Part shown: positions 1-11,394 of the stretch, in pieces | How positions within the stretch are numbered: the first letter of the stretch is position 1 | Layout: each line of letters opens with the position of its first letter | Origin: an uncultured Pseudomonadales bacterium | GTDB lineage: Bacteria; Pseudomonadota; Gammaproteobacteria; Pseudomonadales; Azotimanducaceae | NCBI GenBank assembly: GCA_958296405.1 | Contig: OY282519.1 | Location: forward strand, 2,836,132 to 2,900,131 | Length of the DNA stretch: 64,000 nt | Direction: 5' to 3' | Translations under genes and position numbers: made by a program | The notes under the pieces: generated by a model | The model's database searches: none | Told to the model about the DNA's origin: nothing | The model's input: the letters and a program-made list of their open reading frames with translations, nothing else

Positions 1-197
1 GGTACATGGCCCACTACGGGGCGGGTGGGGCGGGCGCGTGCTAGGATGCCGCGGCATGCACAACATGGCCCGCTACCGCAGCGTGGCGGTGTGGTGCATT
101 GTGGAGCTTGGGGTGGCTGCCGAACGGCTGGGGAGTATATGAGCGTCTTGCATTCCCAACCGCCTCAGCGACTTGGCACCCACTTAGGGATTGCCCC

Positions 198-227
198 TTG
201 GGTTGCGCCGCGACATCGTTTTATATA
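198..227 (+). promoter_or_regulatory. Candidate sigma70 promoter of the methyltransferase–helicase–AlkB operon
   Basis: A TTGGGT box at 198–203 and a TATATA box at 222–227 are separated by 18 bp. The second box lies in a short AT-rich patch that stands out in GC-rich sequence. It is about 40 bp upstream of the proposed GTG start at 267. The first 266 bases hold no gene I can support. The assignment rests on consensus match only. Confidence 0.4.
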
Positions 228-266
228 CAGTGCTTCGAGTGTTGTGGGATATGGGAGTGCTCTCCG

Positions 267-1088
267 GTGGCGGTAGAATTGCCCCAGTGGCTAGAGGACC
301 TGCGCCGCGCCGAGGTTGTTGATCGAGTTCGGAACGATCCGCGGTCTGGATCGGGCAGGTTCTTTGGCTTGAGCGGGCACACGGCAATGAATGCCATAGG
401 GTGGGGACAAGCACCGTTCGATGAACCTTGGGGCGATCTTTCTCCTGAAGATCGCGCCTTGCTCTACGCCTACTTCAACCAGAAGGGGCATTTGGAGGAG
501 CTTACAGAGGCATTTCGCCAGATGTTTCCGAATCGAACGCCTGACGATCTCATTGTAATCGACGTGGGATGCGGTCCCTGCACTGGCGGCTTGGCTTTGG
601 CCGGTGTGCTCGATCCTCCCACCTTCGACTACATCGGTTTGGACTCGTCGGTCACCATGCGCGACCTTGGCGAGCGTATGGCAGCCAGCTTGCGCCGGCT
701 CAAGGGCATGAGACGGTGCTGGGCGAGCGGACCCGCGGCCGTCGATTGGGATAGAGCACCAAGCTGGCGATCTGTGCTGGTAATCGTTTCATATCTCTTG
801 GCTAGCCCGACCTTGGATCCCGCTCAACTCGTCACGGACCTTGACAAACTCCTTGCCAAGCTAGGAAAAGGCAGGGTTTCTGTGCTTTACACCAATTCTC
901 CAAAAGCCTCCGCCAATCGGAACTTTCCGAGTTTTCAAAAGGCAATGCAGGATGCTGGCTTCGACATGCCGGCCGACGGGACTGGTGAGATTGTCGTTGA
1001 GCGATGGGAAGGCGACCAACAGCGGCATCTTCGATACGCAGTGTTCCATCGTCCTGCACAAAACCGGCTTCCGCTTGGAGGTGGCTAG
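267..1088 (+). CDS. Class I SAM-dependent methyltransferase, first gene of a three-gene operon
   Basis: Predicted 273-residue methyltransferase. The SAM-binding motif I is clear (VIDVGCGPCTGGLAL, about residues 97–111), followed by a strand with an acidic end (YIGLDSS) that would contact the ribose of SAM. The fold resembles Rsm22-like and other class I enzymes, but the substrate cannot be read from the sequence. I chose GTG at 267 because GGGAG lies 9 nt upstream. An in-frame opening back to 99 exists, but its translation (Cys/Trp-rich, no family character) looks non-coding. The stop TAG is followed directly by the ATG of the helicase gene, so the two are translationally coupled. The partner AlkB domain two genes downstream suggests a nucleic-acid substrate; that is inference. 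Confidence 0.8.
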   Translation: MAVELPQWLEDLRRAEVVDRVRNDPRSGSGRFFGLSGHTAMNAIGWGQAPFDEPWGDLSPEDRALLYAYFNQKGHLEELTEAFRQMFPNRTPDDLIVIDVGCGPCTGGLALAGVLDPPTFDYIGLDSSVTMRDLGERMAASLRRLKGMRRCWASGPAAVDWDRAPSWRSVLVIVSYLLASPTLDPAQLVTDLDKLLAKLGKGRVSVLYTNSPKASANRNFPSFQKAMQDAGFDMPADGTGEIVVERWEGDQQRHLRYAVFHRPAQNRLPLGGG

Positions 1089-2231
1089 ATGCGGTTGCCA
1101 ACTTGGGAAGATCTTGAGAGCGTGGACGAGCAACTCGATGTGCTCGAGTGGCCATTGGACGAGGCGCTCTTCGTTGCGGGCCCTCCGGGATCGGGCAAGA
1201 CCGTCCTTGCTGTGCGAAGAGCCCAGATGGTTGCCGAAAGCGAACCAGATGCCGTCATGTTGACGTACAACCGTATGCTTCGCCGGCTGATGAAACTGCT
1301 AAGCGAACAGAGCAGGATGGCGCAGGCCGATGAAACCCCTGCCTTTCCCGGGTCTATAGCGACGGTGCAGAGCTATGTATGGCGTGACTACTTGGAAAGA
1401 ACGAGAAGCAAACCGCCAACGTCGCCGGACGACCCGTTCGCCTACATCTGGAGCGAGATGCTTCACATCCTCGAACAGGGCGAGAACGCTCCGAACAGGT
1501 CTCATTTGATCGTAGACGAGGGACAGGACTTGGCCGAGGGATTCTTCGAGTACGCATCGCATTACATCTCGGAAACGATGTCCGTATTCGCGGATGATGA
1601 TCAGGCTCTTGCCAATCAACGCACGACATTGGAGCAGATCAAGCGTGCGGCCAATCTGCCCGATCCCATCATCCTTACACAGAATCATCGAAACACGCCT
1701 CAGATCGCTAGTCTAGCCGAACACTTTCATGCGGGGCGGTTGCCGGCGGCCGCGGTTCGGCGATCGTTCTCAGGGGAAGTACCGCGTCTCGTAGAGCATG
1801 CATCGCTTGACACGATAGCACATCGAGTTTCCAACTCGATGCAAACTCAGGGTGGCAGCATAGGTGTTGTCGTCGATCAGAACGAAACAGGGAAGCTTCT
1901 GCTCCACCCGCTCCGCGAGCAACTCCCACAGCATCGCGTCGAGTTCTACACGAACAGCCTTAGGAATGAAGATCAGATTAACGTGCTCGAAGATGGCGTG
2001 ACCGTACTCAACAAGGAGTCTGTGAAGGGGCAGGAGTTCGACACGGTGTTCATCCTCGAACTTCATCGTTTCCTTCCATGCACGACTGATAGCGAGAAGC
2101 GCGGCATGTACATGATGTGCAGCCGCGCACGAGACAACCTTTGGCTCATTGCGGGTCCAAACGGTCGCCTGACGAAGGGCGCTAGCGACGCGCTGCCGGG
2201 GCCTAAGATATTGGAGCCGGTAAGATGGTAG
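1089..2231 (+). CDS. Compact superfamily 1 (UvrD/Rep-like) helicase
   Basis: A 380-residue SF1A-type helicase or translocase with the canonical motifs in order. Walker A GPPGSGKT lies at about residue 31, motif Ia near MLTYNRML, and Walker B LIVDEGQDL near 140. Motif III is FADDDQAL, motif IV LTQNHRNT, motif V NKESVKGQEFD, and motif VI MMCSRARDNLWL close to the C-terminus. It is much shorter than UvrD or Rep (about 670–720 aa), so the 1B and 2B accessory domains appear to be reduced or absent. Such minimal helicases occur in defence and repair modules. The start abuts the methyltransferase stop, and its end overlaps the AlkB-fusion gene by 7 bp (2225–2231), which argues for one polycistronic unit with fixed stoichiometry. 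Confidence 0.85.
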   Translation: MRLPTWEDLESVDEQLDVLEWPLDEALFVAGPPGSGKTVLAVRRAQMVAESEPDAVMLTYNRMLRRLMKLLSEQSRMAQADETPAFPGSIATVQSYVWRDYLERTRSKPPTSPDDPFAYIWSEMLHILEQGENAPNRSHLIVDEGQDLAEGFFEYASHYISETMSVFADDDQALANQRTTLEQIKRAANLPDPIILTQNHRNTPQIASLAEHFHAGRLPAAAVRRSFSGEVPRLVEHASLDTIAHRVSNSMQTQGGSIGVVVDQNETGKLLLHPLREQLPQHRVEFYTNSLRNEDQINVLEDGVTVLNKESVKGQEFDTVFILELHRFLPCTTDSEKRGMYMMCSRARDNLWLIAGPNGRLTKGASDALPGPKILEPVRW

Positions 2232-4411
2232 AGCAAACTGAGCTGTCTTACGACGAAGGCGGCTTTCAACAACCTCGTCCTATGGAAGCTGCGTTCCCGC
2301 AGCTCAACCTGACAGTAGATCACCGCCGCTTGTTCCGCGCCTTGGGGGACGGTTGGTTGCGACCGCTGGAGGTGGGCGCAGGACAGGTGGTCGGAGTACG
2401 CCGACTCGTGCGTGAGTCAAAGCATCCAACTTCTGGACATCGGATCGCCGTACGCTTGTTCTTGGACGCAAGCAAACTGCCGGACCTAGATACGCTGGTC
2501 TCTCGGAATGGCCAATGGAAGCCGGTTCGTTTGCGTGACGTTTGCTCGGAGGACGACGCGATACACTGGTCTAGCGCTATTCCCACCTTTGCGATTTGTG
2601 CCGTTGCGGTGCCCTCAATCGAGGAAAGGGACCGCTTAATCGGTATGAGCAACGCTTTGTCAAACGTCGATCTCTCAGACATACAAGTCACTGTAGCCGA
2701 TACAGTGAATGAATACGAGTCTACCATCCCCCTTTGTGAAGCAAAAGGGCAACTTATGATACCAGTGAGACAGGACTCTATTTACGGAGCACTAACGATG
2801 GCTTTGTGGGCAGTGCCACGCATCGACCCGTGGATGGACGTGTTGCAAGCGAGTATGGCGGCCGAGCCTTCGCGCCTAGCCGAGGCAACTGACGCTGTTG
2901 ATGCGCCTTGGTGGCGAGTCCCGCCCTGGCGACCACAAGCCGATCGACAGGACACATTGGCAGATAGCCTATGGCTGGCGGCGATGGACACCTTCCAAGG
3001 CAACTGCGATGAGGAACCATCGCCGCCCCGCGGCATGCTGGTTCGCATCGCAGATCGGGCATTGCAGAACGGTGGCGCGGAGTTCAAAGATGCTATCGCT
3101 GACTGGCGGGACGCTACCGCACGGATATTTGCGACAGAAGCGACAGTGAAACTCCAAGACTGGTGGAAGAATCCGGTTGGCGTTGCGATTCAGCTAGTGC
3201 TAACGCGCCCTGAACCCGGTCGATTCAAGACTTGGTTCAAAGACATGCCCAGCCTACCCCCGGGCATTGCATGGTCGGCTGCCACGTTGTGTGGCTTGCT
3301 GAACGGCTACAGGAGACTGTCCACGGACTTTCGTGGGGGTGCTCTGCAACGAGAGCTGCTTTCCATCGAAGCATTGTCCGTTTGCTCGCCTCAAGCAGCG
3401 AAGATGCACTGGCCCAAAGGTCGCCTCAACTTGCGCTGGCGCCGAGAAGCAGCAGTTTTCGTGCTATCTCACGGAGCCCAAGACTTGGCTCGCAAGACAC
3501 GGCAGGCGCGCGGCAAATGGTATGGGGCGGACTTCGGAAAAGCCGAGGTTTGTCGTGCCGCTAGGGGCGTTGCGGAAAAGCTGAACTGGTCGTGCGTCAA
3601 GGTCTCGATCGAGGATAGGAAAATTCCAGTATCTGGTACGGGCAAACTGGAGATGAGAAGCGGTGGTCTCGAAGTTCTTGGCAAAGTGGATATCTTTGTG
3701 CCCGAGCGGGGGACTTTTGATGTCGAGACCTTCCGCCGGCTTATTGCCTTGGAGAGGGCCAATGTGCCGGCACCGCCTGAGGCCAAGGCGCTTGCCGAGT
3801 TACCCAACGATGTCATCCCAGGTCTCACCTACGAACCGGACTTCCTAGACGAGGAAGACGAACAACGCCTCGTCGAATGGATCGACAAGCAAGCGTGGAG
3901 CAGCGCACTGAGAAGGCGTGTGCAGCACTACGGCTGGCGCTACGATTACAAAGCTCGCGGGGTGGACTCGTCGATGCGCCTTGGTGAACTGCCGGCACCA
4001 CTTGCGGAGCTGGCACAGCGCCTCTACGACCGAGGGCTTGTGCCGCAGGTGCCCGATCAGGCCATCGTCAACGAGTACGAGGCAAATCAGGGCATCACCC
4101 CACACGCGGACGCCCCAAGTTTCGCCGATGGCATCGCGACGATCAGCTTGCTGGAGTCTTGGGAGATGAACTTCCACCCTCCCAGCAAGGGTGGCGGGGG
4201 CAGGATGGGCAACAAAGTGCCGCGGCTGCTCGAACGAAGGAGCGTTGCCGTCTTGCAAGGCGAGGCAAGGTGGAAGTGGAAGCACGAGATCGTCAAACGA
4301 AAGTCGGATCCATACGTTGACCGGGGCAAGCGCCGCAGGCGCGACCGCAACCGCCGCATCTCGCTGACGTTCCGGAAAGTCCGGCCGCCCGCGGGGCAGG
4401 CAAGCCGGTAG
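2225..4411 (+). CDS. Large protein with unknown N-terminal region and C-terminal ALKBH8-type AlkB dioxygenase domain
   Basis: 728 residues. The C-terminal part, about residues 530–725, is a 2-oxoglutarate/Fe(II) dioxygenase of the AlkB family. The metal ligands are visible as H627-x-D629 (GITPHADAP) and H687 (RWKWKHEI), and the 2-oxoglutarate arginines as R711 and R717 in RISLTFRKVR. From memory these segments, together with VNEYEANQGI and RRRVQHYGWRYDY, resemble human ALKBH8 more than E. coli AlkB. ALKBH8 hydroxylates tRNA wobble uridines and is itself fused to a methyltransferase, an interesting parallel with this operon. The N-terminal ~520 residues are rich in Trp and acidic residues and match nothing I recognise. 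Substrate (DNA, rRNA, tRNA or phage RNA) is unknown. Confidence 0.8.
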   Translation: MVEQTELSYDEGGFQQPRPMEAAFPQLNLTVDHRRLFRALGDGWLRPLEVGAGQVVGVRRLVRESKHPTSGHRIAVRLFLDASKLPDLDTLVSRNGQWKPVRLRDVCSEDDAIHWSSAIPTFAICAVAVPSIEERDRLIGMSNALSNVDLSDIQVTVADTVNEYESTIPLCEAKGQLMIPVRQDSIYGALTMALWAVPRIDPWMDVLQASMAAEPSRLAEATDAVDAPWWRVPPWRPQADRQDTLADSLWLAAMDTFQGNCDEEPSPPRGMLVRIADRALQNGGAEFKDAIADWRDATARIFATEATVKLQDWWKNPVGVAIQLVLTRPEPGRFKTWFKDMPSLPPGIAWSAATLCGLLNGYRRLSTDFRGGALQRELLSIEALSVCSPQAAKMHWPKGRLNLRWRREAAVFVLSHGAQDLARKTRQARGKWYGADFGKAEVCRAARGVAEKLNWSCVKVSIEDRKIPVSGTGKLEMRSGGLEVLGKVDIFVPERGTFDVETFRRLIALERANVPAPPEAKALAELPNDVIPGLTYEPDFLDEEDEQRLVEWIDKQAWSSALRRRVQHYGWRYDYKARGVDSSMRLGELPAPLAELAQRLYDRGLVPQVPDQAIVNEYEANQGITPHADAPSFADGIATISLLESWEMNFHPPSKGGGGRMGNKVPRLLERRSVAVLQGEARWKWKHEIVKRKSDPYVDRGKRRRRDRNRRISLTFRKVRPPAGQASR

Positions 4412-4637: not shown

Positions 4638-4726
4638 GGAGGGGTGGCTGAGTGGTCTAAAGCGCTGGTCTTGAAAACCAGAGGGGTTTAACGCCCCCCA
4701 GGGTTCGAATCCCTGCCCCTCCGCCA
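4638..4726 (+). tRNA. serT: tRNA-Ser(UGA)
   Basis: An 89-nt tRNA including an encoded CCA. The acceptor stem is GGAGGGG (4638–4644) paired with CCCCTCC (4716–4722), followed by discriminator G and CCA. The anticodon stem CTGGT/ACCAG encloses the loop CTTGAAA, giving anticodon TGA at 4672–4674. The variable arm is long, as expected for serine, and the T arm reads GGGTTCGAATCCC. It decodes UCA and other UCN codons. The 3' end is a common target of tyrosine integrases, and an integrase remnant starts 183 bp downstream. Confidence 0.97.
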
Positions 4727-4909
4727 AACCACTGTTGTACGAATCCATCCGCAGTCGTCGCAGCCATCCGCAGTCTCTCTCAACACGTTGATTTTACCGG
4801 ACATATACGCCTGCTCCTGCATCGGCAGCCGTCAGATTCCGTCTGCAAGGGCATCCATCAGGCATCAATGTGATACAAGTTATGCTGCAAACAGAACGAG
4901 ACATTCCCC

Positions 4910-5281
4910 GTGGGCAATCTCACCGCGGCCAAGGTGCGCAAGGCCAAGCACTCCGGGCGCACCCGCTTCCACGAACGCATCTCCGATGGCGGCACGCTCT
5001 TCCTCCAGGTCACGCCGACCGGCGCGAAGTGCTGGGTGCAGGTCGTCCAAGTGCGCGGCGGGCGGCACACCGTGGGGCTGGGCGGATACCCGCTGACCAG
5101 CCTCCAGGAAGCGCGGGAGGCCGCCTTCGAGAACCGCAGGGCGGCGCGGCGCGGAATCCCTCCCGCCAAGCGGGGCGGGCGCAAGCCCGGCGCACCGACC
5201 TTCGAGGAAGCGGCGGCCGAGGTGCGGGCCACGCAGGCGAACGGCTCGGCTACCTGCGGGACGCCGAGGCGTTCACACTGA
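4910..5281 (+). pseudogene. Truncated P4-type tyrosine integrase (N-terminal arm-binding part only)
   Basis: The 123-residue reading frame opens with GTG. It matches the N-terminal DUF4102-like arm-type DNA-binding domain of P4-family integrases, with GGTLFLQVTPTGAKCWVQ and a TVGLGGYPL strand, reaching TFEEAAAEV where the core-binding domain normally starts. After that the sequence turns into about 18 unrelated residues and a stop. The core-binding and catalytic domains (R…H-x-x-R…Y) are missing. Its position and direction just after the tRNA-Ser gene are standard for an island integrase. It is most likely the scar of a decayed or excised integrative element. No second copy of the tRNA 3' end was seen nearby. 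Confidence 0.8.
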
Positions 5282-5305
5282 CGATTAAAAGAGAGGGTTA
5301 ATGGT

Positions 5306-6523
5306 ATGGATTTCATGAAGATGATCGCCGATTGGGGGCGGGTCGTGGCGCGTTCGGTGTTGGTGTTCCACGTCGTGTGTGCCGCAACGGGGCTGGCCAC
5401 ACTGCTCGGCGTGATCTCGGTGCCCTACATCCTGGAGCCGGCGCCGAGCGGTGCTGCGCTCGCCACGGCCGCGTTCACGGGGTTGCTCTGCCTGGTGGCA
5501 CTCTGTGCGCTCGGCGGTGGCGTGCGCTACGCGGTCTACGGCGACTTCAGGCTGCTGCCGAGCCGCAGTTTCCGGGCCTACTTCTCCGGAGACGACGACG
5601 GCACTGAATCCTCGGCGTATGTGCCCCCGCCACTTCCCAAGCGCACCCAGCGCGCAAGCGACGACGACCTGATCGACCAGGCGGGTGAGCTCATGCTGAC
5701 CAATCCGGCCACATTCATGGATCTCTTCGATCGGCTGCAGGGACGGCAATGCACGCCCCCGGGTGAGATTGCCGAGGAGCTCGCGCCCCGGATTCGCGAG
5801 CTCGGCCTCGAGGCCAACTGCAAAGAGCTCTGGGAGCAGGGCTACACCGTCCTCGAAGATGTCGCTTCGCCCGAGTTCTTGCAGGAGCTGCGCGCCGCGG
5901 CAAAAGAGAACGCTGTGCATGTTCTGCCGAAACACCCGGCCTTCGCCCAGGCGGCGCTCAACGACAAACTGATGGCCATCGCCGAGTTCTCGGTCGGAGC
6001 CGGCTTCCTCCTGAGCAACATGGCCACCAGCATTAAGCGCAAGGGCGATCCGGACCTCAGGATCCACGCCGACCAGACTTGGATGCCCGCCCCCTTCCCG
6101 GAACACAACCTCATGCTGACGGCGTGTTGGGCCCTGGACGACTACACCGCCGAATCCGGGGCGACGACCGTCGTTCCGGGGAGTGCAGCACTGCGGCGAT
6201 ATCCCACCCATGAGGAGATCAAATCGACGCCGAGCGAACCGATACTCTGCAAGGCGGGTTCGATCACACTGTGGGATGGCCGGGTCTGGCACGGCAATGG
6301 CCCCCGCACCATCGATGGCGCGCGCAGGGTTCTTCACATCACCTACAACCGTCTGTACACGCGGCAGATGGAGACCTATCCCCGATCGGTCGAGGATGAG
6401 CTGGTCGAAAAATACGGCGAGCCGATGGCCCAGCTGATGGGTCGCTACGACTATCTGGCCAAGCCCGCGGGCAAAGAAGACTATCGCGGCTTTATGCGCG
6501 CGGTCGCCTACGCGCGCCGCTAA
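5306..6523 (+). CDS. Membrane-anchored phytanoyl-CoA dioxygenase (PhyH) family protein
   Basis: 405 residues. The first ~80 form two hydrophobic helices (about 17–40 and 48–72), followed by a charged linker to about residue 120. The rest is a PhyH-type Fe(II)/2-oxoglutarate oxygenase. The ligands H254-x-D256 (RIHADQT) and distal H329 (VWHGNG) are present, and the 2-oxoglutarate arginine probably lies in ARRVLHITYNR. Family members hydroxylate lipids, amino acids or secondary metabolites; the substrate here is unknown. GAGAGGG lies 8 nt before the ATG at 5306. It begins 24 bp after the integrase remnant, so it may be cargo of the decayed island. The N-terminal membrane anchor is unusual for this family. 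Confidence 0.82.
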   Translation: MDFMKMIADWGRVVARSVLVFHVVCAATGLATLLGVISVPYILEPAPSGAALATAAFTGLLCLVALCALGGGVRYAVYGDFRLLPSRSFRAYFSGDDDGTESSAYVPPPLPKRTQRASDDDLIDQAGELMLTNPATFMDLFDRLQGRQCTPPGEIAEELAPRIRELGLEANCKELWEQGYTVLEDVASPEFLQELRAAAKENAVHVLPKHPAFAQAALNDKLMAIAEFSVGAGFLLSNMATSIKRKGDPDLRIHADQTWMPAPFPEHNLMLTACWALDDYTAESGATTVVPGSAALRRYPTHEEIKSTPSEPILCKAGSITLWDGRVWHGNGPRTIDGARRVLHITYNRLYTRQMETYPRSVEDELVEKYGEPMAQLMGRYDYLAKPAGKEDYRGFMRAVAYARR

Positions 6524-6712
6524 AGCGTCGACGCGGCGTCCGCCGTCCGCCACGCCGTTGAATCCATCCTGCGCCAAGGGTTTCACAGCCTCAAGGAGCG
6601 GCCCCACCTCTACGAGCGGATGGCGGACAAAGCGAAGGCAGCCGAGCCAACGCGGCATCAAGATCCGACGCTTGTGTTATCGTCCACTTGGCGCGATTGC
6701 CGACTAGGGGAG

Positions 6713-6925
6713 ATGATGCAACTCACGGCAGTGTTAGTGCCCGCCCCGGAAGGAGGATTCGTGGCAACGAATCCTGAAACCGGCACGACGACACAAGGCG
6801 AGACCGTTGAAGGGGCATTGGCCAACCTGCGGGAAGCGACGGAACTCTATCTGGAAGAGTCGCCAGTGGAATCATATGGGCGGCCGCTGGTGACGACGAT
6901 CGAAGTTCGCTCCCGTGCCGCCTAG
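6713..6925 (+). CDS. Orphan HicB-like antitoxin-family protein
   Basis: A 70-residue protein with the partial RNase-H-like fold of HicB antitoxins: a first strand LTAVLVPAPEGGFVA, the turn NPETGTTTQGETVEGALANL, and a helix ending EATELYLEE. I start it at the first of two adjacent ATG codons. A longer in-frame opening to 6620 encodes a segment without family character. Neither flank encodes an adjacent HicA toxin, so it is either a solitary regulator or a leftover of a toxin–antitoxin pair. The 189 bp before it hold nothing recognised. Confidence 0.65.
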   Translation: MMQLTAVLVPAPEGGFVATNPETGTTTQGETVEGALANLREATELYLEESPVESYGRPLVTTIEVRSRAA

Positions 6926-7073
6926 CCTGCCGCATGCATCCGGCCGTCGAACATGTCGTGCTCTTTAGGTGCTCGGATTCGTCGTGTCTCGTCAACGAGG
7001 TAGCCATACTGTGATGCGTCGCGGTTCGTTGTGCTGCCTCTAACTCCGCCTGTGCCGTTCAATCTCTTTTAAC

Positions 7074-7940
7074 TTAGCAGCCTGTTCGGCTATCCGTTCG
7101 GCTTCCTGTGCAGCCTGTTCGCCGATCCGTTGGGTTAGTTCGGCTTCCCGTTTTGCCAATCGGTTTTTTGCGATAGCGCTCTGTAAGTCCGCGTTCCTTA
7201 TCTGCTTGTGCCCAAGGTGTGCAAACGGCGGCAGTTTCTTGATTCTGTTGGAGCGGTGCGCCTTCGTAGCGGTATCGCTGGCCACGGGGAGATACGGCAA
7301 CGACCCCGTTGTGTCGATACTCGTGCATATCGCCTGCGGGGACGTTCAGCGGTCGTCCATGCGAAGACAGAACCGCGTACTCCCAGCCGTCGATTCGGAA
7401 CAGGTGTGCGGACTCCGACACGAGCCCCGTCATGCCCATCACCTTGACGAATCCCTCGGTCACGTCCGAAAGGGCCGATCGGGCCAGCGCGTCTCGGTCG
7501 CCATCAAACAGAGTCCACGTGCTCGACCCGGCGTCGATCATCGTTTCGATGGTGCGGATGTCCGGTTCAAAATCGCTCCAAATGGAAGCGAACGCATCGA
7601 TCGTGGCGATCACCGGCCCGGCGAATTCATGGCTTCCGGGATTCACGGCATTGCGGACCCTAAACCTGAGCTGGTCGCCGACTCGGTGCAGAGTGAAGAC
7701 CTGTTCCGTTCCGGTGTCTCGAAAACAGACGAGAGCAACGCCATCGGTGCCGGGCGTGGCCTCATCCGCGTCGTACGACAGCGTGGCATCCTCGCTTGAC
7801 TGGGCGCGGACGGTCGGCACTGCGGCGAGGAACGCTGCCGCTACGAGCGTGGTCGCGCGGCACACAGCCGCAAGGGGCCTTACGGCGGACACCCGGAATG
7901 GCGCGCACGTCGCGATCAGTGGGGCTCGATTCGTTGTCAA
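7074..7940 (-). CDS. Putative secreted protein of unknown function, possibly frameshifted at its C-terminus
   Basis: As read, 288 residues starting at TTG (7940), which overlaps the stop of the upstream gene. A GTG at 7892 would give a cleaner Sec signal peptide (about 30 residues ending TVRAQ). The middle part is a mixed beta-rich domain with no family I recognise. The last ~35 residues are an odd Arg/Thr/Gly/Cys-rich stretch. In another frame the same bases encode a regular coiled coil (…EAERIAEQAAKLKEIERH) to a stop at 7040. This suggests a one-base frameshift near 7190–7210, either real or a sequencing error. It pairs with the gene upstream (7937–8770) as a two-gene secreted unit. Confidence 0.55.
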   Translation of the reverse strand: MTTNRAPLIATCAPFRVSAVRPLAAVCRATTLVAAAFLAAVPTVRAQSSEDATLSYDADEATPGTDGVALVCFRDTGTEQVFTLHRVGDQLRFRVRNAVNPGSHEFAGPVIATIDAFASIWSDFEPDIRTIETMIDAGSSTWTLFDGDRDALARSALSDVTEGFVKVMGMTGLVSESAHLFRIDGWEYAVLSSHGRPLNVPAGDMHEYRHNGVVAVSPRGQRYRYEGAPLQQNQETAAVCTPWAQADKERGLTERYRKKPIGKTGSRTNPTDRRTGCTGSRTDSRTGC

Positions 7941-8770
7941 TTCTCGTCCACTCGCAGAAACCCCATGCGCAGGTGCTCGACCGCACCCGTCTGGACGACG
8001 AGAGACCCGCCTTCCAACGTCTGGCGATCGAGCACCAAGGTCGTGCGGCCGTACAACTCGTCGGAGAAGGGATCGTCGTCCCAGACCGCAATGACCACTT
8101 CGTCGCCCGGATGGACGTTGATGACGGGAACGCCCGCGAATCTGACCGACTTACCCGACGTGGTTATCGTGCTGCTCGACCCGGCGAGCTGCGAGCGCAT
8201 CGCCGATGCCGTCGTTCGGAGTTGCGCGATCTGCGTCCGCAGAGCGGAAATCAGACCTTCAAGCTCCTGCATGCGCTGCAGCTCGTCGTCGGTCAACGGG
8301 GCGTGCCACTCGAGCAGTTGGAGTTCAGGGCACTTCGCGCAACTGGCGCAGGTCCGGAAGTCGAGGCCCTCCGGGCAATCGGTGCAGATCTTGCTTGACT
8401 CGGTGCAGAATCCGCTTACATCAAGGCGCAGAGCGTCGAGACGTTCCCGCTGCTCGAAGGTCAACGCCGGACCGGAACCCGCACGCCTCTCCAACGCGCC
8501 GTGCGCGCCGACGAGTGTATTTTGTCGGCTTCGCAGTTCGCGTTGCCGGCGGTTCGAGGCATCGAGTCGCGCCTCCAACTCCGCATCGAGCCGCTTGACC
8601 CGCACGACCAAATCCGGCCTGGGTTCGTCTTGGTTTACATGGTGGCTGACCCTCATGTCCGAGAAGGACAGCGCGTACGTCGCGGCGACCGCGTCCTCTA
8701 CTGCATTGGCGTCGCAGGGGAGACCGGCGACCGCGAGGGCCAGATACAGCGAACTCACCGAACGGACCAT
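7937..8770 (-). CDS. Putative secreted coiled-coil/Cys-cluster protein of unknown function
   Basis: About 277 residues from the ATG at 8770, chosen because it starts directly at a 23-residue signal peptide (…LALAVAGLPCDANA). GTG at 8845 and ATG at 8818 are in-frame alternatives. A charged coiled-coil region follows (about 45–100), then a cysteine cluster with spacing like CTESSKICTDC…CASCAKC, a second helical segment (TDDELQRMQELEGLISAL), and a C-terminal beta-rich domain (about 185–277) containing VWDDDPFSDELYGRTTL. That stretch recalls a C2-like strand pair, but this is tentative. No family is recognised. The stop overlaps the start of 7074–7940, so the two are co-translated. Confidence 0.6.
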   Translation of the reverse strand: MVRSVSSLYLALAVAGLPCDANAVEDAVAATYALSFSDMRVSHHVNQDEPRPDLVVRVKRLDAELEARLDASNRRQRELRSRQNTLVGAHGALERRAGSGPALTFEQRERLDALRLDVSGFCTESSKICTDCPEGLDFRTCASCAKCPELQLLEWHAPLTDDELQRMQELEGLISALRTQIAQLRTTASAMRSQLAGSSSTITTSGKSVRFAGVPVINVHPGDEVVIAVWDDDPFSDELYGRTTLVLDRQTLEGGSLVVQTGAVEHLRMGFLRVDEN

Positions 8771-9008
8771 TTTCGAAGACACTGCCGTGCTGCCGCGCTG
8801 AATCCGGTTGCGGACCATACCATGCCGGCTCAACACGTTCCGCACTGCGGATCAGACAGCCTCCTGAGCTACAAGGTGCTCGTTCGAGGTCCGGCTTCGG
8901 GAAGCCGCGCCCGACTCCGCCGGTGGCGCGGTCGGGTAACATGGCTGCGATGCAGCCGTTGCCGCCATATGTCCCGTCAGACGCGATGCCGAGAGCGAAA
9001 CAAGACGA

Positions 9009-9431
9009 GTGAATACCCACGAGCGTCTGGCCGATGGCGAAACGGCCAAGGGTGGCTCCGACCGCGGCTTTGGCGTCGTCTTCGCAGTCGTGTTCTTCGC
9101 CATCGGCCTGTTCCCGCTGCTGAACGGCGGGCCGCCTCGCGCCTGGGCATTGGGCGCCGCGGCGGCGTTGCTGGCGGCAGCGTTCGTCCGGCCGGCGCTG
9201 CTGGCGCCGTTCAATCGGGTCTGGTTCAAGTTCGGCTTGCTGCTGCAGCGCGTGGTCAATCCGCTCGTGATGGCGGTGATCTACTTCGCCGTGGTCACCC
9301 CAACGGGCCTCATCATGCGCGCGCTGGGCAAAGATGCGCTGCGCCTCAAACACGATCCGGATGCGCAGAGCTACTGGATCCATCGAGACCCGCCGGGGCC
9401 GGGGCGCGAATCGATGCAGAACCAGTTCTAA
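9009..9431 (+). CDS. SxtJ-family small membrane protein
   Basis: 140 residues starting at GTG. There are three hydrophobic segments: about 21–39, 46–62 and 82–103. The pattern (RPALLAPFNRVWFKFGLLL, then PLVMAVIYF and a C-terminal LKHDPDAQSYWIHRD) is typical of SxtJ-like proteins encoded next to carbamoyltransferases. Its biochemical role is not established. The carbamoyltransferase follows within 35 bp. The small DUF5989 protein that often lies between them in such cassettes is not visible here. Confidence 0.8.
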   Translation: MNTHERLADGETAKGGSDRGFGVVFAVVFFAIGLFPLLNGGPPRAWALGAAAALLAAAFVRPALLAPFNRVWFKFGLLLQRVVNPLVMAVIYFAVVTPTGLIMRALGKDALRLKHDPDAQSYWIHRDPPGPGRESMQNQF

Positions 9432-9465
9432 AGATGATCCACGCCATCTTCTGAGCCCTTCCAAA

Positions 9466-11394
9466 GTGGTGCGCATCCTCGGCCTCTCGGCCTTCTATCA
9501 CGACAGCGCCGCGGCCTTGGTGGAGGGTGGGCGGATCGTCGCCGCCGCCCAGGAGGAGCGCTTCACGCGCAGGAAGCACGATTCGGACTATCCCGCCAAC
9601 GCCATCGCCTGCTGCTTGGAGCAGGGCGGCGTCACCCTTGACCAGATAGACCGGGTGGCGTTCTACGACAAGCCGTTTCTCAAGTTCGAGCGGCTGCTCG
9701 AAACCTACGTCGCGCTGGCGCCGCGCGGCTTCCGTTCCTTCCGCATGGCGGCGCCGGTGTGGATCAAGGAGAAGCTGTTTCAGAAGGGCTTGCTGCGCCG
9801 CAAGCTGCAGGCACTCGCCCCGGACGTGGACTGGGAGGCCAAGCTGCTGTTCGCCGAGCATCATCAATCCCATGCCGCGAGCGCGTTCTATCCGTCACCA
9901 TTCCGCAAGGCGGTGGTGTTGACCATGGACGGGGTCGGTGAGTGGGCCACCACCTCCGTCGCCATCGGCGATGGCGATGACTTGGAGATGGCGCGGGAGA
10001 TCCACTTCCCACATTCCTTGGGGTTGCTCTACTCGGCTTTCACCTACTACGCCGGCTTCAAGGTAAACTCCGGCGAATACAAGCTGATGGGCTTGGCGCC
10101 CTACGGCGAGCCGAAGCACGCGCAGACCATTCTCGAGCACTTGATCGACCTGAAGCCGGACGGCACGTTCCGCCTCAACCTCGACTATTTCAACTACTGC
10201 ACCGGATTGACGATGACCAACGGCAAGTTCGACGCGCTGTTCGGCGGCGCGCCGCGCGAGCCGGACGAGCCGCTGACGCAGCGGCACATGGACCTGGCTG
10301 CCTCGGCGCAATTCGTGATCGAGGCAGCGGTGCTGCGGCTGACCCGCTCGCTGCGGGCGGAAACCGGCATCCCCAATCTTTGTCTCGCCGGCGGCGTTGC
10401 GCTGAACTGCGTCGCCAACGGCAAGGTGCTGCGCGACGGCCGGTTCGATGACATCTGGATCCAGCCGGCGGCGGGTGACGCCGGGGGCGCATTGGGGGCC
10501 GCGTTGACGGCGAGCCATCGCCTGTTCGGCGAACCGCGTCCTTCCATTTCTTTGGGTGGCAGCGGAGCGAGCGCTCACCCGCGTGGCCGCGAAACGGAGC
10601 GCGAAACTGGCAATGAACCCGCCCCGCCGCCTCCCTCTCGCATGACGGACGCCATGCGCGGCGCTTTGCTCGGCCCCGGCTTCCGCCTCGACGAGATTCG
10701 TGCCACGCTCGATGCTGCCGGCGCGCGCTACGAGACGCTTGCGGACGACGCGCTGATCGACGCCGCGACCGAGGCATTGGCCGCCGGCGATGCAGTCGGC
10801 TGGTTCCAAGGCCGCATGGAGTTCGGCCCGCGCGCGCTCGGCAACCGGTCGATCTTGGGGGACGCCCGTTCGCCGACCATGCAGAAGACGCTCAACCTCA
10901 AGGTGAAGCGCCGCGAGTCGTTTCGTCCGTTCGCGCCGAGCGTGCTGCGCGAAGACGTTGCGGACTGGTTCGCGCTCGACCGCGACAGCCCGTACATGCT
11001 GTTGGTGGCGGACGTGAGCGCCGGGCGGCGCCGGCCGCTGGCCGAAGCGCACGATGCATCGTCCGGCATCGACCGGCTGAACGCGCCGCGTTCAGACATC
11101 CCGGCCGTCACCCATGTGGACTACTCTGCCCGCGTGCAGACCGTGGACCGTGAAACCAACCCTCGCTACCACGCGCTGCTGGCAGCCTTCAAGGCCAAGA
11201 CGGGCTGCCCGGTGATCGTGAACACCAGCTTCAACGTGCGTGGCGAACCCATCGTCTGCACCCCAGCGGACGCCTTCCGCTGTTTCATGGGCACAGACTT
11301 GGACTGCCTCGCCATCGGCAACTGTTTCCTGCGCAAGGCGGAACAGGATGCAGCGCTCGAGCACGAGCACGAAGGTTCATTCGAGCCGGACTGA
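9466..11394 (+). CDS. Carbamoyltransferase, NodU/CmcH/TobZ family
   Basis: About 642 residues from GTG at 9466 (a second GTG follows at 9469). The family begins with ILGLSAFYHDSAAAL, which fixes the start. These enzymes make carbamoyl-adenylate from carbamoyl phosphate and ATP and carbamoylate a sugar or natural product. Visible hallmarks are EHHQSHAASAF, GEYKLMGLAPYG, the nucleotide-binding CLAGGVALNCVANGK in the Kae1-like domain, GRMEFGPRALGNRSIL, and RPFAPSVL. A Pro/Gly/Arg-rich stretch of about 35 residues (roughly 10530–10645) between the two domains looks like an inserted low-complexity linker. Neighbours SxtJ and an SGNH hydrolase form a recurrent cassette, probably decorating a surface glycan. 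Confidence 0.9.
   Translation: MVRILGLSAFYHDSAAALVEGGRIVAAAQEERFTRRKHDSDYPANAIACCLEQGGVTLDQIDRVAFYDKPFLKFERLLETYVALAPRGFRSFRMAAPVWIKEKLFQKGLLRRKLQALAPDVDWEAKLLFAEHHQSHAASAFYPSPFRKAVVLTMDGVGEWATTSVAIGDGDDLEMAREIHFPHSLGLLYSAFTYYAGFKVNSGEYKLMGLAPYGEPKHAQTILEHLIDLKPDGTFRLNLDYFNYCTGLTMTNGKFDALFGGAPREPDEPLTQRHMDLAASAQFVIEAAVLRLTRSLRAETGIPNLCLAGGVALNCVANGKVLRDGRFDDIWIQPAAGDAGGALGAALTASHRLFGEPRPSISLGGSGASAHPRGRETERETGNEPAPPPPSRMTDAMRGALLGPGFRLDEIRATLDAAGARYETLADDALIDAATEALAAGDAVGWFQGRMEFGPRALGNRSILGDARSPTMQKTLNLKVKRRESFRPFAPSVLREDVADWFALDRDSPYMLLVADVSAGRRRPLAEAHDASSGIDRLNAPRSDIPAVTHVDYSARVQTVDRETNPRYHALLAAFKAKTGCPVIVNTSFNVRGEPIVCTPADAFRCFMGTDLDCLAIGNCFLRKAEQDAALEHEHEGSFEPD

Follow-up and report, generated by a model that had tools for sequence, protein, structure and literature searches.

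The DNA analysed here, called the window below, is a stretch of 64,000 nucleotides from contig OY282519.1 in the assembly of an uncultured Pseudomonadales bacterium (GCA_958296405.1, positions 2,836,132 to 2,900,131 of the forward strand). Between positions 267 and 4411 of its plus strand, three genes are arranged end to end, and encode a methyltransferase dependent on S-adenosylmethionine (SAM), a helicase of superfamily 1 (SF1), and a large protein, P3, that ends in an AlkB domain (Table 1). A preliminary description, made from the letters of the DNA, had pointed to zero or negative spacing between these genes, and the coordinates of the open reading frames (ORFs) agree: there is no gap between the methyltransferase and helicase genes, and the helicase and P3 genes overlap by 7 nt. 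The methyltransferase frame is open from position 99 (99-1088), with the start at 267 backed by homologues.

Table 1. Features of the operon and its surroundings (positions in the window; aa, amino acids; 2OG, 2-oxoglutarate; pLDDT, predicted local distance difference test).
Feature	Position	Strand	Basis
Class I SAM-dependent methyltransferase, proposed writer, 273 aa	267..1088	+	SAM motif; related to C3a159
Minimal SF1 helicase, UvrD/HelD/GajB-like, 380 aa	1089..2231	+	Pfam, PADLOC, motif conservation
P3: clamp-like tail, novel N-domain, middle domain and AlkB dioxygenase, 728 aa	2225..4411	+	
P3 N-terminal tail, residues 1-21, low-confidence, probably disordered	2225..2287	+	pLDDT under 50
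QTELSY in the P3 tail, a non-canonical counterpart to the clamp-like motif in relatives	2234-2251	+	
P3 N-domain, residues 30-433 (404 aa), no known sequence family	2312..3523	+	
P3 middle domain, residues about 426-522	3500..3790	+	
AlkB (ALKBH8-type) Fe(II)/2OG dioxygenase domain, all ligands present	3803..4381	+	
Segment present in the window; 56 bp stand in its place in G008, a genome of the same genus where a free-standing AlkB of the same clade is retained	32..3813	.	
tRNA-Ser(TGA), outside the operon; its 3' end is the limit of similarity to G008	4638..4726	+	
Integrase N-terminal fragment (Arm-DNA-bind_3 only)	4910-5281		Pfam

Three genes inherited together with intact catalytic motifs

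The assignments made in the preliminary description (methyltransferase of class I, minimal helicase of SF1 with all of its motifs, AlkB domain with all of its ligands) are borne out by conservation among relatives. The methyltransferase SAM motif D-x-G-C-G-P-x-T-G-G is unchanged across all 18 relatives aligned, as are the helicase motifs Walker A, DExQD, NHRN, KGxEF, and RAR across all 19. The HxD, distal H, and RX5R residues of AlkB are invariant in all 19 fused proteins and in all 11 rows of alignment A8. Pfam identifies SF1 helicase signatures in the helicase gene and 2OG-FeII_Oxy_2 at the C-terminus of P3 (2.2e-14), with the methyltransferase below threshold (Methyltransf_25, 0.094). The window methyltransferase matches the PADLOC model C3a159 (7.7e-9, spanning positions 58-131 of 265), and its other weak matches are to METTL17/Rsm22 and generic families; Rsm22 is matched by 7 of 18 members, the window's not among them. 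The helicase matches GajB models of PADLOC weakly (best 4.1e-10). Of the MADS system (methylation-associated defence), mad2 (2.6e-4) and mad8 (3.5e-8) alone were matched, both weakly, the other mad genes not having been looked for. None of the three window proteins reaches the cut-off of an NCBIfam model, and no such model describes the set; together with the lack of any PADLOC model matching P3, this fits the earlier suggestion that the combination is undescribed. A second 2OG oxygenase, of the PhyH family (9.8e-19), is located close downstream of the operon at 5306-6523.

Human ALKBH8 is the solved structure nearest to the P3 AlkB domain by sequence, and a structural comparison using VIA-align places ALKBH8 and ALKBH6 as tied nearest neighbours, with a match list that is all AlkB domain; the description of the domain as ALKBH8-like therefore stands. 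The N-domain matched no Pfam family, no PADLOC family, and no PDB sequence, and its predicted structure consists of a beta-rich part followed by an all-helical part. A Pfam search (E up to 0.1) of 19 proteins of the P3 family detected the oxygenase domain in all 19 and no RRM, and otherwise one weak match to CcmB and one to SAP. The latter (0.096) probably sits in a long insert in the middle domain of one relative (L039). Around HxD, fused AlkBs mostly have the pattern HxDS..SF and free ones mostly HxDC.PCF.

A co-occurrence of the three genes in the same order across distant taxa, which had been raised for this operon, was found at several scales. Matches to P3 occur in 11 of 97 genomes drawn from the genus, family, and order of the window, and in six of these, the window's own genome among them, the match extends over almost all of P3. 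Helicase and methyltransferase sequence is present in the same order at all five other near-full-length loci, being split over two frames in one (L013) and a remnant in another (L016). A scan of the genomes of 84,980 species for the N-domain profile turned up 25 loci, each titled as a metagenome-assembled genome (MAG); the number is a lower bound, since the scan used two peptide patterns. Most of the loci are labelled Gammaproteobacteria or Pseudomonadales, and the remainder Entotheonella, Gemmatimonadetes (two), Nitrospira, Defluviicoccus, Halieaceae, Synechococcus, and two other proteobacteria; several lie on the same contigs as genomes of the same-order search (e.g. L024 and G002). All 21 near-complete loci (L021-L041) contain the helicase and P3, and 20 of them also the methyltransferase. 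The locus without a full methyltransferase (L035, on the same contig as L016) holds a remnant. The helicase or P3 is in pieces in L021, L039, and L040, and P3 of L028 is cut by the contig end; the other loci have partial N-domains (L042 and L043) or no ORF matching the profiles (L044 and L045).

The gene order is methyltransferase, helicase, P3 in 18 of 20 loci, and helicase, P3, methyltransferase in the two Gemmatimonadetes. Besides these three genes, no flanking family is common to more than 2 of 22 loci. Distance matrices of the three proteins are correlated (Mantel r 0.53-0.89, 0 of 2000 permutations each) across the 14 loci that occur in all three alignments, the near-duplicate L025 being left out. 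Samples of genomes from other phyla yielded a full P3 in 2 of 16, 1 of 100 (with one further match to AlkB only), and 1 of 5. On these genomic comparisons, the three genes are inherited together and their catalytic motifs are intact in all three.

Many of the loci are apparently of sponge origin. Four have SB06xx codes, which we take to be those of sponge MAGs. Nine more of the 25 carry the codes STY, COS, RHO, IRC, CAR, or APA, which may be read as sponges by comparison with the species named in the accessible part of PMC8163846, a reading inferred from the codes that leaves 12 of 25 unplaced. CRISPR and restriction genes are enriched in sponge symbionts according to that part of the same paper.

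Mobility, loss, and recurrence of the methyltransferase-AlkB pair

In a tree of AlkB domains (made without L090, L018, and L028), 24 rows, comprising 22 of the fused type and the AlkBs of genomes G008 and G044, form one clade (99/93). Within this clade the proteins from Synechococcus (L039), Defluviicoccus (L038), and two proteobacterial loci (L037 and L041) group together (100/97), and transfer between phyla is therefore suggested. Viral contigs searched with the P3 profile contained four relatives, one of full length. This is on an IMG/VR contig of 91.9 kb (L066), where genes for a tyrosine integrase, a DNA methylase, and a coupling protein resembling TrwB/TraG accompany the operon and give the contig the look of an integrative conjugative element. 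P3 of this contig (7920-10727) has 935 aa, about 200 of them beyond the AlkB domain. Carriage by known phages was considered and rejected, as the N-domain, the G008 AlkB, and the cyanobacterial methyltransferase described below were unmatched in 50,697 phage records. When the window and L066 are counted, 16 of 23 loci have the full set of three genes unbroken, including L031, where there is one stop at the far end of the match. A gene is broken in six (L021, L025, L035, L038, L039, and L040), and L028 is cut by the contig end. This distribution implies horizontal spread with frequent loss or decay, as would be expected of a mobile cassette.

The same-genus genome G008 is similar to the window up to position 31 and again from 3814, inside the AlkB gene, to 4726, and these flanks are 97.4% and 94.7% identical. 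Its free AlkB branches beside that of the window, inside the fused clade, and the AlkB of G044 is a broken remnant. We considered whether a native ancestral AlkB at the G008 locus had the module added later, and rejected this because the AlkBs of both genomes fall inside the fused clade; they are therefore read as remnants. Upstream of the operon are genes that we take to be imuA, imuB, and dnaE2, a mutasome (L011 1352-6940), and DNA similar to this region is present at the G008 locus. The preliminary description placed the operon next to an integrase-scarred tRNA gene, a setting that it called common for defence or modification islands. The tRNA-Ser gene and the integrase fragment are indeed there and adjacent to the operon, but downstream: the match to G008 runs as far as the final base of the tRNA (4726), and the operon therefore lies 5' of the tRNA boundary and outside the island beyond it.

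Related methyltransferases are also found directly before free AlkB genes on the Picosynechococcus plasmids pAQ5 and pAQ6 and on one plasmid of strain PCC 7003. The operon methyltransferase profile matches the pAQ5 protein with 89.7 bits (tblastn 25%, 1e-8), and the cyanobacterial methyltransferase is matched by C3a159 at 6.8e-125, where 'C3a' presumably stands for CRISPR type III accessory. Other genes on pAQ5 include a defence-type reverse transcriptase, an Abi protein, and restriction genes, and both pAQ6 and the PCC 7003 plasmid have type III-B Cmr genes. No helicase of the operon family, and no N-domain, was found among the tested neighbours of these pairs. Across 386 cyanobacterial genomes, matches to C3a159 (E up to 1e-7) and to the AlkB profile (E up to 1e-40) occur in the same four, a fifth methyltransferase match being weak (E 7e-4); the genes are adjacent in three of the four, and the other has the three-gene system of L039. 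C3a159 was matched in 0 of 14 control genomes. In the class of the Defluviicoccus MAG (289 genomes), 13 genomes have an ALKBH8-type AlkB (E up to 1e-40). Two of these are fused (G245 and G915), one has a methyltransferase neighbour (G898, 9.6e-9), and in the remainder the 1.5 kb that were examined contained nothing matching the methyltransferase profile, with one locus cut by a contig end. By these sequence matches, the methyltransferase-AlkB pairing recurs without the operon helicase and N-domain. Regular partnership between the two enzymes suggests that the product of one is the substrate of the other.

Other features of these loci can be described. In the clusters of L062 (pAQ5, 5346-11028), L063 (pAQ6, 4882-8549), and L064 (4882-8549), the pair is preceded by a kinase-like ATPase that has a WYL-like region. 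The methyltransferase of L062 (9504-10382) weakly matches the N-terminal part of the PADLOC RT_UG35 profile (7.2e-5), where a domain related to it may be joined to a reverse transcriptase. AlkB genes of the ALKBH8 type also occur on three viral contigs (L067, L068, and L069), with no operon-family methyltransferase in the stretch examined; the AlkB of L067 groups with those of the cyanobacterial pairs in the tree.

The N-terminal tail of P3 and a possible tie to the sliding clamp

The canonical motif for the bacterial beta clamp is Q-aliphatic-x-[LM]-[FL] or Q-aliphatic-x-[LM]-x-[FL], as set out in the accessible part of PMC11139829. In most loci the start codon of P3 and the stop codon of the helicase gene overlap. 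Canonical motifs (QIPMPL, QIAMPL, QLPMGF, and QIPMDF) are present in 4 of 23 P3 tails compared with 0.16 expected (0 of 5000 shuffles). Further tails have QPPLPL, QGSLPL, QMVLPM, QTNFDF, QTAFPF, QTKELF, and others, and a relaxed pattern, drawn after the tails had been viewed, is present in 15 of 23 compared with 1.09 expected (0 of 5000 shuffles as high). The set of 23 was obtained from 24 by omitting L042 and L043, which are broken or fragmentary, and adding L066, and it retains the near-duplicates L024/L025 and L022/L036. As controls, the relaxed and canonical patterns were found in 0 and 0 of 19 helicases, 1 and 1 of 18 methyltransferases, and 7 and 1 of 205 flanking ORFs, respectively.

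AlkBs that stand alone can carry similar motifs. For example, those of the three cyanobacterial pair lineages have QLELF, QLELF, and QLDLF. The canonical motif is present in five of nine hand-picked free AlkBs, two of the five being near-identical, and the starts of free AlkBs include QLGLF (G156), QLSLGI (a Streptomyces plasmid), and QDLF (G008). The plasmid AlkB of R. denitrificans has no motif, and none was seen by eye in the three viral AlkBs. From its predicted clamp-binding tail, P3 seems to be built for docking on the replication machinery. The known bacterial proteins with clamp motifs take part in replicating or repairing DNA or in controlling these processes, and the likely substrate therefore moves from RNA to DNA.

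Possible functions and comparison with known systems

Tentatively, and as something possible rather than established, we favour the view that the operon is a mobile three-gene module whose target is DNA at the replication fork or behind it, most likely to protect the cell against mobile elements. P3 would dock on the beta clamp through its tail, the SF1 motor would expose single-stranded DNA, and the methyltransferase would place a mark (methyl or methyl ester), which the AlkB domain would oxidise or remove on clamp-associated DNA. DNA made by the host replisome would thereby be left in a state different from that of invading DNA. Defence is made more likely than housekeeping repair by the patchy distribution, transfer, and decay, and by the defence genes found near some loci. 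A more specific proposal, which we regard as quite improbable, is that clamp-coupled erasure provides self/non-self immunity: the methyltransferase and helicase would mark or damage bases, the clamp-docked AlkB would erase the mark, or convert it, on DNA made by the host's clamp-bound replisome, and DNA replicated without the host clamp would stay marked and blocked. If true, it would supply the missing physiological substrate of bacterial ALKBH8-type enzymes, which is left open in the accessible part of PMC4051686. Together with the clamp-like motif, the operon and the repeated pairing of AlkB with a methyltransferase predict that this substrate is replication-fork DNA with a mark made by the partner, and the prediction is testable in cultivated Picosynechococcus PCC 7002, which has two copies of the simpler pair (pAQ5 and pAQ6). 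A defence function would add 2OG oxidation paired with methylation and tied to the replisome, an arrangement that we know from no catalogued defence system.

Several observations weigh against this proposal. The tail of the window's own P3, QTELSY, is non-canonical, 8 of the 23 tails lack even the pattern chosen with hindsight, and the one canonical motif among the 18 methyltransferases is likewise at an N-terminus. By eye, most free alphaproteobacterial AlkBs and the AlkB of the alphaproteobacterial pair L088 are without the motif. The weak relatives of the methyltransferase include a mitochondrial ribosome factor, no full-length P3 was found in 72,556 plasmid records, and assembly errors may account partly for the broken genes. 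In favour of a defence setting, PADLOC models (1e-15) match some of 111 flanking ORFs, with at least three for AriA, two for PD-T4-4_A, and one each for AbiLi and DrmD, counts that come from 25 listed families of 38 matching, without the near-duplicates L025 and L036, and that stand without a background control; several operon loci lie among housekeeping genes.

In a second explanation, which is conceivable though doubtful, the operon carries out clamp-tethered alkylation repair with the methyltransferase as an auxiliary, and the helicase gives AlkB its single strand, as ASCC3 supplies single strand to ALKBH3. Symbionts would then use it to counter reactive metabolites or replication-blocking adducts. 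The clamp-like motif is consistent with repair, as are the retention of AlkB alone in G008, with its QDLF start, and the position of the operon in the window lineage beside the presumed imuA-imuB-dnaE2 genes. In addition, the ALKBH8-type protein of Rhizobium etli repairs etheno adducts in DNA, as stated in the accessible part of PMC4051686, but an Agrobacterium knockout was, in the same part, insensitive to methyl methanesulfonate (MMS) or chloroacetaldehyde (CAA). Repair also leaves the conserved methyltransferase without explanation, and a set found at 25 loci in 84,980 species genomes by the two-pattern scan is very patchy for such a role.

An RNA module that modifies or repairs tRNA or rRNA, as a split, helicase-assisted counterpart of ALKBH8, had been put forward in the preliminary description with the tRNA wobble uridine in mind, and we consider it rather unlikely. 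The AlkB domain would suit it, but no ALKBH8/Trm9-type enzyme is among the 19 PDB sequences matched by the methyltransferase profile (E up to 1), the P3 family is without a detected RRM, the clamp-like motif points to DNA, and the distribution is patchy, decaying, and mobile. The tRNA reading is not supported for the further reason that tRNA-Gly(UCC) did not change when the ALKBH8-type gene of Agrobacterium was knocked out, as given in the accessible part of PMC4051686. That three unrelated genes were joined by chance or in one ancestral event, with no joint function, is scarcely credible. The AlkB part can persist alone, intact in G008 and broken in G044, but the same genes in mostly the same order, in varied contexts and several phyla, speak against it, as do the separate cyanobacterial pairs; conservation of the locus, unshared flanks, and correlated distances largely refute a chance neighbourhood. 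Mobile-element defence is the explanation that we favour, on sequence evidence, over alkylation repair or RNA modification.

Comparison with known systems shows where the operon differs from each. Eukaryotic ALKBH8 (RRM-AlkB-ZnF-methyltransferase) has the nearest AlkB domain and also has a methyltransferase and AlkB as partners, whereas the methyltransferase of the operon is a separate gene with no Trm9-type relation detected, and a helicase, a novel N-domain, and a clamp-like tail are added with no RRM found; the substrate is probably not tRNA, unlike that of ALKBH8, whose hydroxylation target is mcm5U at the wobble position. Free-standing bacterial ALKBH8-type proteins (Rhizobium etli, Agrobacterium, and Roseobacter denitrificans, in the accessible part of PMC4051686) share the type of catalytic domain, but are single genes, and the fused AlkBs form their own clade. 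The cyanobacterial pairs share a related methyltransferase right before an ALKBH8-type AlkB with a clamp motif, and have other neighbours (the kinase-WYL protein, reverse transcriptase, and Cmr genes). Human ALKBH2 associates with PCNA through an APIM motif (accessible part of PMC11139829), and P3 would, if our reading is right, be its functional parallel, an AlkB dioxygenase likewise kept at the replication fork by a short sliding-clamp motif; the motif, clamp, and AlkB subfamily are different, and there is no methyltransferase or operon. Gabija (GajB), helicases associated with reverse transcriptases, and HelD are similar in their helicases, but the operon has no conserved nuclease or reverse transcriptase partner and its helicase has 380 aa. 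Membership of Gabija was rejected, as the GajB match is weak and no fourth gene, such as the GajA nuclease, is shared among 22 loci. The matches listed in the open-access literature, with subscription papers outside this scope, include no description of the operon. As far as seen, the component families were already known, and what is new is the assembled system and the N-domain of P3.

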